Source: Lachnospiraceae bacterium
GTDB lineage: Bacteria; Bacillota; Clostridia; Lachnospirales; Lachnospiraceae
Length of the DNA: 62,117 bases
Direction of reading: 5' to 3'
NCBI GenBank assembly: GCA_017614155.1
Contig: JAGACK010000016.1
Span: forward strand, 1 to 62,117
Below the pieces are notes generated by a model. The model was not told the origin of the DNA. It searched no databases and saw nothing but the letters and a program-made list of their open reading frames with translations. The position numbers and the translations under genes are program-made. Each line of letters begins with the position of its first letter. The stretch's first letter is position 1. Shown here piece by piece: positions 42,449 to 50,511 of this stretch.

Positions 42449-44668
42449 CTACTCTCCTTTTATCACAAGACCTGCACTGAGCATGACAGCGTTCCCTATA
42501 CAGACAGGGATCAGGAATCCTGTCAGCGCGCCGACCACCGTCAGTCCTGCTGCGACAAGTATCGAAACAAAGGAAGGCATATGGGCAAGGAAGATACCCA
42601 TAATGACTTCAATTACCATTATTATCACGAGCACGGGTATGGTGACTTCAAGGTTGATCACTGAAAAAATACCGGTCACTATAATAAGAGCCACCAGGAA
42701 GATAAGGCTCATTGTTGCCCTTGGTATCGCGCCGAATATGAGGGAATCCGTCGAGCGCCTGTTGGGCGACTGGTCGCGAAGCCTCCTTTCATCCTGCATC
42801 ATATTCCTGCTGTTATCACGCGCTCTTTCACGCAGGGGTCTGTCCGGGTCGGGAACGGAATTTGCATGATGAATGCTTCCGGATGCATTCATAGTATTGG
42901 CTGTGTTCATAGTGCTGGGCGCATAATTCATATTCATGCCGCCGGCATTAAAATCTGCAGTTCCCATTTTGGGATCAGAAACCTGCTGCTGATAGGGAGG
43001 CATGAATGTCATGCCCTGAAGATCAGGGTTCTGATATAAGGGTGTATTCTGAACATTGTTCTGTTCATAGGCAGGTTCTTCATAATAAGTACTCCGCTCT
43101 CTTGCTCTGCGTCTGTCAGTTCTTTCAGCAGGGGCCTCTTTCCTGGGATATCTTTGAGGCTTTTCTCTCCTGGAAACAGACCTGGACTTTTCGGGCCGCT
43201 CTCTTCTTGCCGAACTTCTTCCCCTTTCACCTGAAGATCTGCTGTCGGCACGTTCGAGTATCTCGGCATTGTCGGGATCAAGCGCTGTCGGAGCAACTGT
43301 TCTGGCTATGGGCTTTTGATTATTATACAAAGGCGGAGTGATGAAAAATCCGTTGTCGAATGAAGGAGGGATCGGCGCTGTGGGCTTTACCGCAGGTTCA
43401 GGAACAGCCTGCTGTACAGGTTCAGGCTCTTCGGTTTTTTCAGGTTCTGCCGCCGCAGTTTCAATTTCGGGCTCGGAAACTTCGGGCTCGGAAACTTCGG
43501 GCTCGGAAATTTCGGGCTCGGAAACTTCGGGCTCGGAAACTTCGGGCTCGGAAACTTCGGGCTCGGAAACTTCAGGCTCGGAAACTTCGGGCTCGGAAAC
43601 TTCGGGCTCGGAAACTTCGGGCTCGGAAACTTCGGGTTCGGATACTTCGGGCTCGGAAACCTCAGCTTCAGAAACTTCAGGTTCGGAAACTTCGGGTTCG
43701 GACACTTCGGGCTCGGAAACCTCAGGCTCGGAAACCTCGGGCTCGGAAACCTCAGGCTCAGAAACTTCAGGTTCGGTTTCTTCCGGTATCGGTTCTTTGT
43801 CATCAGAATCTGCGGTTAAAGACTCTGAAGGTTCAGGCTCTTTTGCGCTTTGCGGGGTACTGACGGGAGCTGCCGCACCAAAAAATTCTCCGCCTATAAG
43901 CTCTGTTTCCTCATATGCCGGTTCGGGAGCATCATACATTACAAAGCCTGTATTTTCGGGCTGGAAGTTATTATTTTCAGGAGCAGCCGCAGGATCGGAA
44001 ACATGCATTTCCTGTTCAAAGCCGTTGCCGGCATTCGGGTTCATGTCAAAGCCGTTACCGGCATTCGGGTTCATGTCAAAGCCGTTACCGGCATTCGGGT
44101 TCATGTCAAAGCCGTTACCGGCATTCGGGTTCATGTCAAAGCCGTTGCCGGCATTTAGGTTCATGTCAAAGCCGTTGCCGGTGTTCGGGTTCATGTCAAA
44201 GCCGTTGCCGGTATTCAGGTTCATGTCAAAGCCGTTGCCGGCATTCAGGTTCATGTCAAAGCCGTTGCCGGCATTCGGATTCATGTCAAACCCACTGGCG
44301 GTGTTCAGGTCTATATCGAAACCGCCCGAGGCCGAAGTTTCATCATAAAAGTTCCTGCTTTTTGAAGCTGAGGCATTTGGCTTTTCCTGCCTTACATCCT
44401 CGGGATAGATCTCTTTTACTGCTTTCTTCTTTTTTCCGAACAGCGAAAACCCCTTTTCTTTGCGGGGCTTTTCGGGAGATTCCTTTTTAACGGGTGCAGC
44501 TTTTGAAGGCTTGACTGCAGACGGCTTGGTTCCGCCCTGTCCTAAAGACCTGCCGCCTGACTGACGGTTCAAAGAAGGGTTTGAAGATCCGCGGCTTAAA
44601 GAAGGACCCTGCGACATGCGGTTACCCATCGATCTGGAATTGTTGTTTCCAAAGTTTCTTTCATCCAC
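42449..44668 (-). CDS. Low-complexity repeat membrane protein (GFDMN and SEPEV repeats)
   Basis: The start is GTG 44668: AAGGAG lies seven bases upstream, while the nearby ATG is in another frame. The 739-residue protein is unrecognised. It has a basic, Ser/Asn/Gly-rich N-terminus (1-115), nine exact-length 10-residue repeats GFDMN(P/L)N(A/T)GN (126-215), an acidic array of 21 pentapeptides SEPEV, and a basic Arg/Ser-rich region ([18 protein letters not shown]). A Tyr/Gln/Asn/Met-rich stretch follows, and about 100 C-terminal residues with three or four membrane helices. There is no signal peptide, so the long disordered part is probably cytoplasmic, tethered to the membrane by its tail. A scaffold or condensate role is conceivable but unproven. 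Confidence 0.8.
43463..43777 (-). repeat. 15-bp tandem array, 21 units, encoding SEPEV
   Basis: Exactly 315 bases form 21 units of 15 bp encoding (S/T)E(P/A)E(V/I). Most units share GGCTCGGAAACTTCG on the plus strand, with scattered synonymous changes that suggest slippage expansion and conversion. It is unbroken in frame. Confidence 0.95.
44024..44293 (-). repeat. 30-bp tandem array, 9 units, encoding [10 protein letters not shown]
   Basis: Exactly 270 bases form nine 30-bp units with no spacers between them, encoding GFDMN(P/L)N(A/T)GN. A diverged unit ([10 protein letters not shown]) flanks it on the N-terminal side. Neighbouring identical units show recent expansion. Confidence 0.95.
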
Positions 44669-44737: not shown

Positions 44738-44745
44738 TTTCAAAA

Positions 44746-44818
<73 letters not shown>

Positions 44819-44831
44819 ATATTACCAGAGT

Positions 44832-44860
44832 ATTATAAGCAAATATCAGTATTATTTCAA
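44832..44860 (-). promoter_or_regulatory. Strong promoter of tRNA-Thr
   Basis: On the minus strand, a -35 TTGAAA (44855-44860), a 17-bp spacer and a -10 TATAAT (44832-44837) are close to consensus. The -35 overlaps the stop codon of the upstream branching-enzyme-like gene (44857-44859). With no clear terminator after the tRNA, this promoter may also feed the repeat-protein-argH-asd genes. Confidence 0.8.
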
Positions 44861-46980
44861 GTGTCGGAATGTCTGAAGAGCGTAACGCTCATCGGTGCGA
44901 CTTTAACCCTGATGGAATCATCCCTCATGTCGCACTCATCTTTTTTTGAAATTATCCCCTTTGCAGGATTTACAAAACCGAATCCGCCGTATTTTTCAGA
45001 ATCCGAATTGAAAACTTCAGTATATTTTCCGGCCTTTGGTACGCCTATCTTGTATTCTTTCCTGGGAATGCTCAGAAAATTCACGACGCACACGACCAGA
45101 TCCTTTTTATCGGGGCTGTATCTTGCAAAAACAAGAATGTTTTCATTGGCTGAAATATTGTTTATCCACTCAAAGCATTCGGGGATGTCATCGGATCCGT
45201 AAAGAGCCTTTTCAGTCCTGTAAAGGCCAAGCAAATCCTTTAAGCACTGACAGAACCGCCCGTCAAGCTTTTCAGGCAGGCCGAGTCCCGGGTATATCAG
45301 TTTTTTCCCGGGGTGGAACATGAAAAATGAATACAGCGCCCTCAGGTTCGAGAACTTCTCATCTTCATCTCCCGACATCATGTCATAAAGAGAACTTCTG
45401 CCGTACATGGCCTTGTTTTCTGAAAGCGGAAGAAGGAAGCTTTCGTTGTACTGATAGACCATGGGGAAGCAGACTTCATTGTAGTGGGCAGATCTGCTCA
45501 AAGGTTCGTAGGACAGATATCCTGAAACATCTGCAAACCATCCGTTGTTTATCTTCAGTGAAAATCCCATTCCTTCATTCTCGGCATCCTTTGTGATGTC
45601 GGGATAGACTGATTCATCATCAGCGATCATGATGATACCGCCTGAAAGCTTTTTGATCACGGAGTTCAGATGCCTGAAATAATCAATAGCGTCAAGATTC
45701 TCGTTCCCTCCGTACATATTGGGTGTCCACTGCCCCGGTCCCTTGTCATAGTCAAGGTAAAGGAGTTTGGCAACATCATTTACCTTCAGACCGTCAGCAT
45801 GGAATACAAGGAGCATATACAGCGCATTTGCAATGAGGAGATTTTTGACCTCGTTTCTGCCGGTATTGAAATACCTGTAGCCACCGCCGGGATAAAAGCT
45901 TCTGTTCGCATCGGGATCCTCGTACAGGCAGGAACCGTCATAAAGCGAAAGCCCCGAAGAATTCTCGGGGAATCTGACGGTATTCCAGTTCAGAATGACA
46001 CCGATTTCTTTTTTATGAAGTTCATTGATAAGGCTCATCAGGCCGTCACATGAAAGGATTGATGCGGACGGGCAGAAAAGAGGATCTTTGTCATCTGTTG
46101 CGTCATCGAGCAGAACATGGGTATATCCGTTTTCCGTAATAAGTTCTGTTATGTTTGAGGCAAGCTTCTTTACTGTTCCCGTTTTTTCGAAAAGCTCCCT
46201 GACATTTATCTCGCAGATCGATACAGGGCTGTCCTGTATGCTGATGCTGTCTCTTTTTTCTATCCATTCGTCATCGGTGAACTTGAAATCATGAAGGCCT
46301 TTTACTATGGATGCCCCGTCTTCGCCTTCTTCACTTTCAAAAGCATATGGATCACTCTTCAGGATGCAGATGCCGTTCTTCATTTTTATCTCATATTTAT
46401 ACCTGTCGCCCTTTTTTGCGCCCGGGATAAATATCTCAAAGACACCGGAATCCCAGAGCCTTTCCATCTGGTGTATGCGGCCGTCCCAGTTATTGAAATC
46501 CCCGACGACGCTGACCCGTATGGCAGACGGAGCCCATACTGCAAAATGAACGCCCGAAATGCCCGAAAGTTCCATGATCCTTGCGCCCATGACATCATAA
46601 CTCTTGTAATGGATCCCGCCATTGAACTTCTGGATGTCTCTTTTGTTCAGGACTCCTCCGAAGGAATACGGATCATATTCCTCGCGCTTATCACCGTTTT
46701 CATCAGTGATTATAAAAGAATACTCAAAAGGTTCGCGGTTTTTTACAAGAATGGCAAAATACCCCTCTTCGTCCGCAAGCTCCATCTCTGTACTCTTTTT
46801 TTCGCCCTTAAACTTTATTGCTATCTTTTTTGCATCAGGCCTGTATGCTGTTACAAGGGTTTGGCCTCCGCGGACAGGGTGAGCGCCCAGTACACCCTTC
46901 GGGTGATCTTCTTCGGAATAAGTGACGGCTTCGATTTCAGCCCAGTCCATCAGATTGTATAATTTTTTTGACATTGCCAT
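44857..46980 (-). CDS. Glycogen branching enzyme-like protein, catalytic residues lost
   Basis: The 707-residue protein has the GlgB architecture: an N-terminal beta domain (about 25-120), CBM48 (about 130-215, FAVWAPSAIRVSVVGDFNNW), a GH13 barrel (about 255-590) and a C-terminal beta domain. The barrel aligns through HADGLKVNDVAKLLYLDYDK, GGNENLDAIDYFRHLN and FSNLRALYSFFMFHPGKKL. All three catalytic acids appear changed: the nucleophile Asp of GLRVDAV is Asn401 (GLKVND), the acid/base Glu of AEEST is Asp454 (ADDES), and the transition-state Asp of SHDEV is Asn522 (SENKA). Substrate loops (GYQVTGYFAP, PAHFP) are also not conserved. It is probably a glycan-binding or regulatory pseudoenzyme. 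It ends the leuB-ser transcript, 17 bases after the DUF1015 gene. Confidence 0.85.
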   Translation of the reverse strand: MAMSKKLYNLMDWAEIEAVTYSEEDHPKGVLGAHPVRGGQTLVTAYRPDAKKIAIKFKGEKKSTEMELADEEGYFAILVKNREPFEYSFIITDENGDKREEYDPYSFGGVLNKRDIQKFNGGIHYKSYDVMGARIMELSGISGVHFAVWAPSAIRVSVVGDFNNWDGRIHQMERLWDSGVFEIFIPGAKKGDRYKYEIKMKNGICILKSDPYAFESEEGEDGASIVKGLHDFKFTDDEWIEKRDSISIQDSPVSICEINVRELFEKTGTVKKLASNITELITENGYTHVLLDDATDDKDPLFCPSASILSCDGLMSLINELHKKEIGVILNWNTVRFPENSSGLSLYDGSCLYEDPDANRSFYPGGGYRYFNTGRNEVKNLLIANALYMLLVFHADGLKVNDVAKLLYLDYDKGPGQWTPNMYGGNENLDAIDYFRHLNSVIKKLSGGIIMIADDESVYPDITKDAENEGMGFSLKINNGWFADVSGYLSYEPLSRSAHYNEVCFPMVYQYNESFLLPLSENKAMYGRSSLYDMMSGDEDEKFSNLRALYSFFMFHPGKKLIYPGLGLPEKLDGRFCQCLKDLLGLYRTEKALYGSDDIPECFEWINNISANENILVFARYSPDKKDLVVCVVNFLSIPRKEYKIGVPKAGKYTEVFNSDSEKYGGFGFVNPAKGIISKKDECDMRDDSIRVKVAPMSVTLFRHSDT

Positions 46981-46997: not shown

Positions 46998-48239
46998 CTA
47001 TATCTTGTGAATGAATAATCCCGAGCGAAGCTTCGGTTCAAACCAGGTTGATTTCGGTGGCATGAGCCTTCCTGCATCCGCTACGGCAAAAAGCTCTTCG
47101 ATCGAAGTCGGATACATTGCAAAAGCTACAGTCGCCCTGCCCGAATCTACTCTTTTTGAAAGCTCTTCAAGTCCGCGGATCCCGCCTACAAAATCAATGC
47201 GGCTGTCAGTCTTCGGATCCTCGATATTCAGTATCGGTGAAAGCACCTCGTTCTGAAGCACCGATACATCAAGGCTCTCTACGGGATCGTCTGTTTCAGG
47301 CCTGTCCTTCAGGGTGAGTCTGTACCATTTTCCGCTGATGTACATACCTATGCAGCCTTTTTCTTCGGGATGGTATATCGTGTCGCCGCGGTCTTCTATA
47401 TTGAATTTCTTTCTGAGCCTGTCAAAGAACCTCTCCTCGGACAGTCCGTTCAGATCAGATACCAGCCTGTTGTAATCAAGGATCTTTAATTCTTCATCAG
47501 GGAAAAGCACAGAAAGGAAGAAATTATACTCGGCGTTTGGATCAAAGCTGTCTTTTGCGGATGCTCTTTTTTCCAGGCAGACCTTTACTGCCGAAGCGCA
47601 TCTGTGATGTCCGTCAGCTATATAGATATCATTTATTGAAGAAAAGGCATTCCTTACGGCGACTATGTCCTCTTTGTCTTTTATTATCCATACCCTGTGC
47701 CTGATACCGTCCGGAGACACAAAATCATATTCAGGATCGTTCGTTTTTGTTTTTTCGGTAACTGAGGCTATCACCTCGTTTTTCCTGTAGGCAAGAAAGA
47801 TCGGCCCTGTCTGGGCATTGCATGCTTTTACATGCTCTATCCTGTCTTTTTCCTTGTCAGCGCGTGTGTTCTCATGCTTTTTTATTATGCCGTTTGAATA
47901 ATCATCCGCTGAAGCAGCTGCAACTATTCCGGTCTGGCATCTTCCGTCCATTGTCAGCTCATAGATATAATAAAAACGGTCTTCATCCATCGACAGCTCG
48001 CCGTTTTCCATCATCTGTGACAGTATCGAAGCAGCTTTTTCATATACTCTCGGATCGTCAAAAGATACGCTGTCATCAAAGGAGGTCTCTGCCCTGTCAA
48101 CTCTCAGAAAGGAAAGAGGCTCCCTTTTTATTTCCTCTCTTGCCTCCTTCGTGTCCATGACATCATAAGGCAGAGCCGCTATATGCGATGCGGCATCCTT
48201 TGCAGGCCTTACGGCTTTGAATGGTCTGATATCTGCCAT
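46998..48239 (-). CDS. DUF1015 family protein
   Basis: The 413-residue protein fits the DUF1015 family. It starts ADIRPFKAVRP, has ALPYDVMDTKEAREE, the conserved KKHENTRADKEKDRIEH motif (about 120-136) and IYIADGHHRCASAV (DGHHR at 209-213), and ends near MPPKSTWFEPKLRSGLFIHK. DUF1015 proteins have been linked to the ParB/sulfiredoxin-like fold; members of that superfamily include free-serine kinases. Its place 12 bases after serA, with no serB in the window, suggests a role in serine or phosphoserine metabolism. That role is inference. Confidence 0.85.
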   Translation of the reverse strand: MADIRPFKAVRPAKDAASHIAALPYDVMDTKEAREEIKREPLSFLRVDRAETSFDDSVSFDDPRVYEKAASILSQMMENGELSMDEDRFYYIYELTMDGRCQTGIVAAASADDYSNGIIKKHENTRADKEKDRIEHVKACNAQTGPIFLAYRKNEVIASVTEKTKTNDPEYDFVSPDGIRHRVWIIKDKEDIVAVRNAFSSINDIYIADGHHRCASAVKVCLEKRASAKDSFDPNAEYNFFLSVLFPDEELKILDYNRLVSDLNGLSEERFFDRLRKKFNIEDRGDTIYHPEEKGCIGMYISGKWYRLTLKDRPETDDPVESLDVSVLQNEVLSPILNIEDPKTDSRIDFVGGIRGLEELSKRVDSGRATVAFAMYPTSIEELFAVADAGRLMPPKSTWFEPKLRSGLFIHKI

Positions 48240-48251
48240 TTTTCCACCTTC

Positions 48252-49415
48252 TTACTTTACTATCCTTACCCTGTATACGCCTTCAAGCGATGAAAGCTTT
48301 TCAACAAGCTCTTCGCTCACTGTCATATCGGTATCCATCATGGTCACTGCATTGTCGCCCTTTGACCTGTTGTTCATCTCGGAGATATTGATCCCTGCTT
48401 CTCCGAAGATCGCGGAATACTTTGTGATCATGTTTGCCACATTTTTGTGGAAGATCAGGATCCTGGATGCTTTTTCGAAGGACCCCATGCTGATGGCAGG
48501 GAAATTGACGGAATTCCTGATGTTTCCGTTTTCCATATAGTCGGAAAGCTCCTGTACAGCCATGACTGCGCAGTTGTCTTCCGATTCCTCCGTTGATGCT
48601 CCGAGGTGAGGTATGATGATGCAGCCTTCCTTTCCGGCATTGGTAGGGTTGGGGAAATCGCAGACATATCTGCGAAGCTTGCCGACCTTCAGTGCATCCA
48701 CAACGGCGCTTTCATCAACGAGAAGATCCCTGGCAAGATTGATAAGTATCGCGCTGTTCTTCATGAGCTTTATGGCGTTGACATCAATCATCTTTTTTGT
48801 CGCATCCATTAACGGCACATGAACGGTAATGAAATCACAGTTTGCATAGATTTCGGAAACTTCTTTTACATGCTTTACCGAACGGGAAAGCTTCCATGCC
48901 GCATCTATCGAGATATAGGGATCATAGCCGTAAACCTCCATGCCAAGATTGACAGCGGCATTTGCTACTTGTATGCCTATTGCGCCAAGTCCGATGACAC
49001 CGAGTTTTTTGCCGTAGATCTCAGTTCCGGCATAAGCCTTCTTTTGCTTCTCTGCAGTCTTTGCGATGTCTTCTGCGCCTTCCTGTGAGGATACCCAGTT
49101 TATTCCGCCGACTATGTCGCGGCTGGCAAGAAGCATGGCAGCTATCACGAGTTCTTTTACACCGTTTGCATTTGCTCCGGGAGTATTAAAGACAACGATG
49201 CCCTTTTCGGCGCATTTATCAAGAGGAATGTTGTTTACGCCCGCGCCTGCCCTGGCTATAGCCAGAAGATTGTCGGAAAAATCCATCTCATGCATGGATG
49301 CGGATCTGACGAGCACACAGTCAGCATCATTAATGTCATCACACTGGACAAAGTTTTCATCAAAGCCGTCAAGTCCGATCTTTGCGATATTGTTTAAGCA
49401 GTTATATTTGAACAT
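48252..49415 (-). CDS. serA: D-3-phosphoglycerate dehydrogenase
   Basis: The 387-residue protein oxidises 3-phosphoglycerate to 3-phosphohydroxypyruvate, the first step of serine synthesis. The D-isomer dehydrogenase motifs are present: NAD site LGVIGLGAIGIQVANAAVNL, catalytic Arg in INLARDLLVDE, catalytic Glu segment and His in PHLGASTEESEDNCA. A C-terminal ACT domain (about 315-387, EAGINISEMNNRSKGDNAV) suggests allosteric control by serine or another amino acid. The length fits short-form SerA. It lies 16 bases after serC. Confidence 0.94.
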   Translation of the reverse strand: MFKYNCLNNIAKIGLDGFDENFVQCDDINDADCVLVRSASMHEMDFSDNLLAIARAGAGVNNIPLDKCAEKGIVVFNTPGANANGVKELVIAAMLLASRDIVGGINWVSSQEGAEDIAKTAEKQKKAYAGTEIYGKKLGVIGLGAIGIQVANAAVNLGMEVYGYDPYISIDAAWKLSRSVKHVKEVSEIYANCDFITVHVPLMDATKKMIDVNAIKLMKNSAILINLARDLLVDESAVVDALKVGKLRRYVCDFPNPTNAGKEGCIIIPHLGASTEESEDNCAVMAVQELSDYMENGNIRNSVNFPAISMGSFEKASRILIFHKNVANMITKYSAIFGEAGINISEMNNRSKGDNAVTMMDTDMTVSEELVEKLSSLEGVYRVRIVK

Positions 49416-49431
49416 CTTATTATCCTTCCTT

Positions 49432-50511
49432 TTAGTTTTCTGACTCGAATTTCTTCATGAATTCAACAAGCTTTACAACGCCTTCCTTCGGCATCGCATT
49501 GTAGATGGAAGCCCTCATGCCGCCGACGCTTCGATGACCCTTGAGATTTACGAAGCCGTTTGCTTCAGCTTCTTTTATGAATTTGGCGTTGAGTTCGTCA
49601 CTGTCTGTTACGAAGGGTACATTCATCAATGATCTGTATTCACGATCCACTGTTCCTTTGAACATCTTTGACTGATCAAGGAAATCATAAAGGACAGCCG
49701 CTTTCTCCTCATTCATTTTCTTTATGACCTCAAGTCCGCCAAGCTTTAACAGCCATTTGAAAACAAGGCCGCATACATAGATGTTGTAGCAGGGAGGCGT
49801 GTTGTAAAGCGAATCGGCATCTGCGTGAGTCTTGTATGTGAGCATCGTGGGAGTTCCGGGAAGCGGTGTGTCTGTTATCAGGTCTTCACGGATCACAACT
49901 ATGACTACACCGGCAGGTCCGACATTCTTCTGGACGCCGCCGTAAACGAGACCGTACTTTGTGACATCCATCGGCTCTGACAGGAACATGGATGATACAT
50001 CCGATACAAGGGTCTTTCCCTTTGTGTTAGGAAGTTCCCTGTATTTTGTTCCGTAGATGGTGTTGTTCTGACAGATATACACATAATCTGCATCTTCGCT
50101 TATCGGAAGATCGGACACATCGGGTATATAAGCAAATGTCCTGTCTTCGCTTGATGCGATCTTGTTTGCTTTACCGTATTTTGAGGCTTCCTGCCAGGCT
50201 TTTTTTGCCCACTGTCCTGTCACGATGAAATCTGCGACACCGTTCTTCATGAGATTCATCGGGATCATGGCAAACTGCGTTGAAGCTCCTCCCTGAAGGA
50301 AGAGGACTTTGTAGTTATCCGGGACATTTACAAGCTTTCTGAAATCGGCCTCGGCCGTTTTTATTATCCCGTCATAAACCTTTGATCTGTGGCTCATTTC
50401 CATAACAGACTGACCTGAACCTTCATAGTCAAGCATCTGCTCTGCCGCCGTTTTTAATACCTCTTCCGGGAGCATTCCCGGGCCTGCCGAAAAATTAAAT
50501 ACTCTGCTCAT
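49432..50511 (-). CDS. serC: Phosphoserine aminotransferase
   Basis: The 359-residue PLP enzyme converts 3-phosphohydroxypyruvate to O-phosphoserine using glutamate. It begins RVFNFSAGPGMLPEEVLKTA and has the SerC segments LQGGASTQFAMIPMNL and YGGVQKNVGPAGVVIVVIRE, which contains the PLP Lys, then YNTPPCYNIYVCGLVF and the C-terminal GHRSVGGMRASIYNAMP. It precedes serA by 16 bases. The third enzyme, SerB, is not encoded here. Confidence 0.96.
   Translation of the reverse strand: MSRVFNFSAGPGMLPEEVLKTAAEQMLDYEGSGQSVMEMSHRSKVYDGIIKTAEADFRKLVNVPDNYKVLFLQGGASTQFAMIPMNLMKNGVADFIVTGQWAKKAWQEASKYGKANKIASSEDRTFAYIPDVSDLPISEDADYVYICQNNTIYGTKYRELPNTKGKTLVSDVSSMFLSEPMDVTKYGLVYGGVQKNVGPAGVVIVVIREDLITDTPLPGTPTMLTYKTHADADSLYNTPPCYNIYVCGLVFKWLLKLGGLEVIKKMNEEKAAVLYDFLDQSKMFKGTVDREYRSLMNVPFVTDSDELNAKFIKEAEANGFVNLKGHRSVGGMRASIYNAMPKEGVVKLVEFMKKFESEN

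Follow-up and report, generated by a model that had tools for sequence, protein, structure and literature searches.

GLGB2, a putative conserved pseudoenzyme of the GlgB branching-enzyme family in Lachnospiraceae

The window analysed here is a whole stretch of 62,117 nucleotides (positions 1-62,117 of contig JAGACK010000016.1, assembly GCA_017614155.1) from a Lachnospiraceae bacterium, a relative of rumen bacteria. On its minus strand, adjoining serine-making genes, lies glgB2, whose product GLGB2 has the make-up of a GlgB branching enzyme with all three catalytic acid positions changed. Sequence comparisons give good support to the reading of GLGB2 as a conserved pseudoenzyme, a protein that has very probably ceased to be a branching enzyme and is not simply decaying. 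A sequence-only reading had placed an open reading frame at 44857-46980 without giving its strand; the frame is there, on the minus strand, and it is open throughout, in agreement with the claim that the gene is intact.

Domain layout and active site of GLGB2

The features of the gene and its predicted protein are as follows.
44857..46980 (-), GLGB2, candidate pseudo-branching enzyme, 707 residues
46666..46944 (-), GlgB_N (N1) domain, residues 13-105 (PF22019, E 1.2e-25)
46843..46968 (-), frozen segment, residues 5-46 (97% pairwise identity among 7 window-clade sequences)
46342..46590 (-), CBM48, residues 131-213 (PF02922, E 2.3e-31)
45301..46230 (-), degenerate (beta/alpha)8 barrel, residues 251-560, with the WGYQ loop deleted
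45778..45780 (-), Asn401 at the nucleophile position, followed by Asp402 (alignment to intact GlgB)
45619..45621 (-), Asp454 at the general acid position, followed by Asp455 (same alignment)
45415..45417 (-), Asn522 at the stabiliser position (same alignment)
44869..45168 (-), C-terminal beta domain, residues 605-704 (PF02806, E 1.3e-17)

The GlgB_N, CBM48 and Alpha-amylase_C domains all exceed their Pfam cut-offs, as anticipated by the claim that the GlgB fold and CBM48 are retained, and PF00128 was not among the Pfam matches of the barrel in a scan of the protein. Profile and fold comparison revealed the domain order and fold of GlgB, as expected of GH13_9. GLGB2 exceeds the cut-off of the equivalog model TIGR01515 (514.1 versus 463.95) and scores below those of NF003811 (543.1 versus 741), NF008967 (526.6 versus 577) and the longer models PRK14705, PRK12568 and PRK14706. 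On these profile matches GLGB2 is a protein of the type 1 (N1 plus CBM48) branching-enzyme family; the type 1 and type 2 naming follows the available text of PMC6339891.

We read the active site from an alignment of 58 sequences that included, as a control, L002, a second GlgB with intact motifs (triad D/E/D) from the same genome. Asn401, Asp454 and Asn522 had been named as the residues at the catalytic positions, which we take to be D405, E458 and D526 in E. coli GlgB, and the alignment confirmed the assignment. The substrate-loop motifs are gone, as had been claimed: the Tyr of WGYQ is deleted and the His of PAHF is replaced by Arg336. The Arg two residues ahead of the nucleophile is Lys399 in GLGB2, and the His directly ahead of the stabiliser is Glu521. 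Compared with L002, GLGB2 is altered or lacks a residue at 7 of the 7 positions that we assume to be hallmarks of GH13 branching enzymes, and these columns are invariant in all ten intact family copies and all three intact genus members compared. The alignment did not place an intact Asp/Glu/Asp at the active site of GLGB2, and both L002 and a Cyanothece GlgB run through the same active-site columns. The change from Glu to Asp at position 454 retains an acid, which softens the loss of the triad. Twenty genomes from two sister clades have changes at all three positions, which makes chance or assembly error very unlikely; we rejected an assembly or alignment error on this recurrence and on the fit of the intact GlgB to the same columns. 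One of the 20 genomes, the AC3007 record (L059; its protein is identical to that of L011), is not labelled as a metagenome-assembled genome.

Recurrence, selection and the position of constraint

We searched 48 genomes of the window's genus for glgB2 and for the DUF1015 gene that precedes it. glgB2 was seen in 47 genomes and in the last is interrupted by a contig end; no genome of the 48 has more than one DUF1015 gene, and in genus loci with enough upstream sequence glgB2 directly follows it. The triad could be scored in 46 genomes, tallied by hand. At least one catalytic acid is missing in 30 and all three are retained in 16; 20 of the 30, made up of the window clade (7) and its sister clade (13), are changed at all three positions. 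The two unscored genomes are G015, where a contig end interrupts the gene (the contig matches L064, which carries the gene's first residues), and G021, where the gene is also interrupted by a contig end and the DUF1015 match is itself partial. The stops listed in two copies (G043, G039) fall just ahead of the start codon, and no internal stop is listed in the other genus copies, those split by contig ends not being judgeable.

Selection was assessed by codon-model estimates of omega (dN/dS), for which we give final values and rely on their being far below 1, not on the exact figure. For GLGB2, omega was 0.042 in the window and its three nearest relatives, 0.061 in 7 window-clade sequences and 0.079 in 9 sister-clade sequences; the values for DUF1015 from the same genomes were 0.091, 0.095 and 0.090. 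In the clades that bear the triad, omega was about 0.025 to 0.08 (interim values from program logs). GLGB2 has therefore remained under purifying selection after the loss, with omega of 0.042-0.082 in two sister clades and synonymous sites saturated.

The distribution of this constraint along the protein differs between the intact and the changed copies. In ten intact family copies, mean identity was 47% for N1 (residues 1-105) versus 76% for the barrel, whereas it was 83% and 65% within the window clade, and 70% and 50% between the window and sister clades. The ratio of N1 to barrel distance was 0.42 (bootstrap 0.29-0.58) in the window clade versus 2.76 (2.15-3.52) in the intact family, and 1.48 (1.00-2.15) in three intact genus members. 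Amino-acid distances were employed here in place of segment-wise omega, which was set aside in the intact family set as saturated: its values were as low as 0.029 for N1 and 0.013 for the C domain, the very parts with the least identity. Within the window and sister clades, the barrel is the fastest-evolving of the four domains compared. Thirteen intact sequences share 250 invariant sites, of which 131 count as retained, with an unchanged residue in at least 94% of 17 pseudo sequences; by domain, the retained sites include 17 of 20 in GlgB_N (3 lost), 33 of 38 in CBM48 (5 lost), 18 of 22 in the C domain (4 lost) and 51 of 143 in the barrel (92 lost). Judged by these comparisons, the barrel has lost constraint, which now lies on the N1, CBM48 and C-terminal domains.

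Residues 5-46, the frozen segment, are 97% identical within the window clade and 96% within the sister clade. Where residues of this segment are identical, 56% of the codons in the 7 window-clade sequences and 50% in 10 sister-clade sequences nonetheless differ synonymously, as they do in the rest of the gene. A constraint on the DNA, such as a hidden regulatory element, was rejected for this reason; the segment is constrained at the protein level. The earlier proposal of a conserved pseudoenzyme rather than decay is upheld by the recurrence of the substitutions in orthologues, by omega of 0.04-0.08 and by the non-catalytic domains being the most constrained.

Gene neighbourhood, second GlgB and repeated loss of the triad

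The neighbouring genes upstream of glgB2 in the window are listed below.
46998..48239 (-), DUF1015 gene, predicted serine-kinase-like fold (structure model)
48252..49415 (-), serA-like phosphoglycerate dehydrogenase, below NCBIfam cut-offs
49432..50511 (-), serC phosphoserine transaminase (TIGR01364, 509 bits, cut-off 443.6)

The glgB2 start follows the DUF1015 stop by 17 nucleotides, with AGGAAGGGG ahead of glgB2. By sequence, the DUF1015 protein had no convincing solved relative (best E 0.068). The order ilvD-ilvB-(YkuD)-serC-serA-DUF1015-glgB2 is found in many relatives, not in all. The same substitutions recur in orthologues after DUF1015, mostly with serA upstream, as the search proposed in the sequence-only reading was meant to establish; L067-L070 have no serA within about 2.6 kb ahead of DUF1015, and about 4 kb separate serA and DUF1015 in L037 and L084. 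On the other side, 37 nucleotides past the glgB2 stop, is a tRNA-Thr(CGT) gene (44745-44819, minus strand) with a promoter-like TTGAAA-17-TATAAT; a tRNA-Thr(CGT) was also seen 3' of glgB2 in 13 of the 19 loci scanned in relatives, and the window's tRNA gene was the sole match in an Rfam scan of 36000-62117. Beyond it, 42449-44668 (minus strand) encodes a 739-residue protein with tandem EVSEP repeats and a second, 10-residue repeat type. This protein has membrane-like C-terminal stretches by eye, partial likeness at most in relatives and no family match except Extensin, below cut-off.

The second GlgB has intact motifs in all 18 genus copies checked. In G022 its match consists of a 51-residue piece only. 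Likewise, each of 8 genomes of other genera with a changed DUF1015-linked copy has a second GlgB with intact motifs, one of these (L232) being listed with a TGA. All 48 genus genomes have the phosphorylase family PF00343 and 41 of them the GT5 synthase domain PF08323, indicating that glycogen metabolism is present for GLGB2 to act on.

The 58-sequence protein tree, which took in 10 of the 30 family loci L085-L114, shows changed copies interleaved with intact ones. The changed groups are the window clade with its sister clade; L023/L025/L078 (with NEN at the three positions) beside the intact L020; L072-L075; L077; and L027. The groups are largely the same in a DUF1015 tree (62 sequences, supports not printed), which however separates L073 from L072/L074 and pairs L077 with L027 as sisters. 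Each of the protein, DUF1015 and non-barrel trees calls for at least four losses within the genus, provided that catalysis was never regained. The genus clade DEDa (L024, L026, L028-L031, L052, L053) retains the triad with altered flanks (VDNT, AEDN, HDAF), and its copies are possibly half-way forms.

Other genera widen the picture. DUF1015 was found in 245 of 299 genomes, and we surveyed the first 60 rows of this list, chosen without regard to similarity to an intact copy, as 56 downstream regions from one genome each; one row next to a contig end was left aside, as were L087, L088 and L090, which the analysis already included. A GlgB with a readable triad lies within 4.7 kb of DUF1015 in 16 of the 56 regions, 9 intact and 7 changed (TDE, SKD, VE-, IQD, ADD, HEK, CE-), one region has a partial GlgB, and no GlgB was seen in 39, at least five of which are shortened by contig ends. 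With L087, L088 and L090, all intact, the survey rows hold 12 intact and 7 changed copies of 19. A second set of 40 GlgB genes, from lower rows of a search with the intact L020, comprised 36 intact and 4 changed copies. Four changed copies that were scanned for domains (L182, L199, L217, L223) have GlgB_N, CBM48 and C domain over cut-offs, and PF00128 over its cut-off in 2 of 4. Changed triads occur in three other-genera GlgB copies for which no DUF1015 was seen in the fetched flanks (L155, GDQ; L161, NED; L166, DET).

We calculated a whole-protein tree of 97 sequences with 21 of the 30 loci L085-L114 and 14 of the 40 second-set genes; all four changed second-set genes were included, so that changed copies are enriched. 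In this tree the window clade joins changed copies of other genera, with seven losses. We read this grouping as long-branch attraction, since the non-barrel and DUF1015 trees disagree with it. The window clade falls with its own genus in the DUF1015 tree, and in the non-barrel tree (314 columns) it lies within 44 genus-coloured sequences together with L085 and L088 (support 0.98), where the node uniting it with other genus members has a support of only 0.15. The non-barrel tree has 11 losses overall versus 7 on the whole-protein tree, and the family-wide number is not settled. L048 is genus-coloured in the non-barrel tree, though it is outside the 48 genomes. Fragments (L061, L063, L071, L079, L080, L081) and the distant L056 and L060 were excluded from the trees, L071, L079 and L081 being nevertheless counted among the 46 scored genomes; L190, L213 and L214 were excluded from the 97-sequence tree (same gene as L055 and L141; one partial).

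Possible functions of GLGB2 and known systems

We consider it probable that GLGB2 is a former enzyme, still under selection, that acts as a non-catalytic alpha-glucan-binding subunit or scaffold; the glycan sensor or scaffold role proposed earlier is plausible. We infer a non-catalytic function from the shift of constraint only, and favour glucan binding or scaffolding with docking through N1 because it would fit the constraint pattern best. The CBM48 and C-domain surfaces would hold glycogen, and the frozen N1 segment would dock GLGB2 on a partner that stays constant. The likeliest candidates are the intact GlgB or some other glycogen enzyme, the DUF1015 protein being less likely. GLGB2 beside the intact GlgB would then resemble plant ISA2 beside ISA1. 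More tentatively, and with some doubt on our part, the DUF1015-linked GlgB may have had a second, non-catalytic job in its N1, CBM48 and C domains before catalysis was lost, hence the survival of the gene at each triad loss. If so, the family would be a natural series in which one syntenic gene, linked to serine biosynthesis and a serine-kinase-like protein, turned repeatedly and independently from enzyme into pseudoenzyme.

Several observations weigh against the favoured function. In matched genomes, the second GlgB has a lower omega than GLGB2 (0.019 versus 0.057 in the window clade, 0.038 versus 0.082 in the sister clade), and synonymous sites are saturated in the omega comparisons; the pseudo form is less constrained than the second GlgB and far from neutral. 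In four matched intact/NEN genomes the order is reversed (second GlgB 0.046 versus GLGB2 0.025). The N1/barrel ratio is already 0.56 (0.34-0.88) in DEDa, which retains the triad, and is not low in the triad-less NEN clade (1.10, 0.59-1.79). Thus, the shift of constraint is not tied strictly to triad loss, and the DEDa ratio suggests that it may have preceded that loss. The frozen N1 segment is absent from the changed copies of other genera, which are 29-54% identical to the window there (11 sequences). The second GlgB was not matched in 3 of the 48 genus genomes, G007, G018 and G039 (79, 75 and 81% complete). Finally, all 19 sequences compared from the window and sister clades have Asp at both 454 and 455, a retention that a dead barrel would not require.

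This last observation favours the strongest rival, a new barrel activity in which Asp402, Asp454 and Asp455 form a new catalytic or ligand-binding site, as does an Asp or Glu at position 402 in 17 of the same 19 sequences. The alpha-amylase BmaN1 is moreover active, according to the available text of PMC5347038, although its stabiliser is changed and its presumed nucleophile lies one place further downstream than usual. We nevertheless regard a new activity as unlikely: position 402 is Asn in 2 of the 7 window-clade sequences (Asp in 5), the 12 sister-clade sequences all have a deletion at the stabiliser position, most sequences are altered at the Arg and at the PAHF His, the barrel evolves fastest, and BmaN1, as described there, retains the general acid Glu. 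The fast divergence of the barrel could mark a redundant gene in slow decay, an old copy that its operon preserves now that the second GlgB has taken its place. Such a reading would agree with the intact motifs of the second GlgB wherever these were checked, and with what looks like a graded series of erosion from DED with altered flanks through NEN and KQD to full loss. Slow decay appears quite unlikely given omega of 0.04-0.08, the 97% identity of residues 5-46, the gene in 47 of 48 genus genomes with the last interrupted by a contig end, and the lack of listed internal stops, bar the two just ahead of a start codon, in copies that can be judged.

A different partner is put forward by the idea that GLGB2 works with the DUF1015 serine-kinase-like protein and links serine metabolism to carbon storage, which otherwise overlaps with the glucan-binding or scaffold role. 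The 17 nucleotides between the genes, their succession in genus loci with flanking sequence, the 16 of 56 sampled regions in other genera with a GlgB within 4.7 kb and the serine kinase fold predicted by the DUF1015 model point in this direction. However, a common operon does not equal binding, and the 39 regions without GlgB, some limited by contig ends, indicate that DUF1015 does not need it; we hold this partnership to be distinctly improbable. That GLGB2 still acts as a branching enzyme through an unusual active site is hardly credible: the score above the TIGR01515 cut-off speaks for it, and seven changed or missing hallmark residues with the loss of the substrate loops speak against it. 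Since this equivalog model accepts a triad-less protein, predictions of glycogen branching in Lachnospiraceae from glgB counts can be off.

GLGB2 differs from type 1 GlgB of GH13_9 in its triad, in four further hallmark residues changed or missing and in the deleted WGYQ loop. We found no description of a bacterial pseudo-GlgB of this kind among the titles and abstract openings listed in searches of the openly licensed PMC literature (15 of 1,489 papers in one listing), which does not prove its absence in print. BmaN1 has a changed stabiliser and an Asp one place past the usual nucleophile, as does the window's GLGB2, although this Asp varies within the window clade; in the available text of PMC5347038 it is active and retains the general acid Glu, where GLGB2 has Asp454 with the Arg and His also changed. 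The glgA-glgB fusion of Criblamydiaceae and Waddliaceae likewise contains a bacterial branching domain reported as inactive in the available text of PMC11046441, there through gene fusion by rearrangement, whereas GLGB2 is a single open frame under purifying selection. The nearest precedent, by analogy, appears to be plant ISA2, described in the available text of PMC12510319 as a GH13 isoamylase that lost its catalytic residues and was retained by selection beside an active paralogue. Both proteins have an N-terminal beta domain ahead of CBM48, lost catalytic residues and a paralogue, active for ISA2 and with intact motifs for GLGB2. ISA2 belongs to the GH13_11 debranching subfamily, whereas GLGB2 is a GlgB by profile and fold, and the loss in ISA2 is placed in one common ancestor in that text, in contrast to the several bacterial losses here. 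The best-studied GH13 precedent is thus a single ancient loss, whereas intact, partly changed and fully changed forms coexist repeatedly here in one syntenic gene, so that the order of events, a new job first or the loss first, becomes testable.
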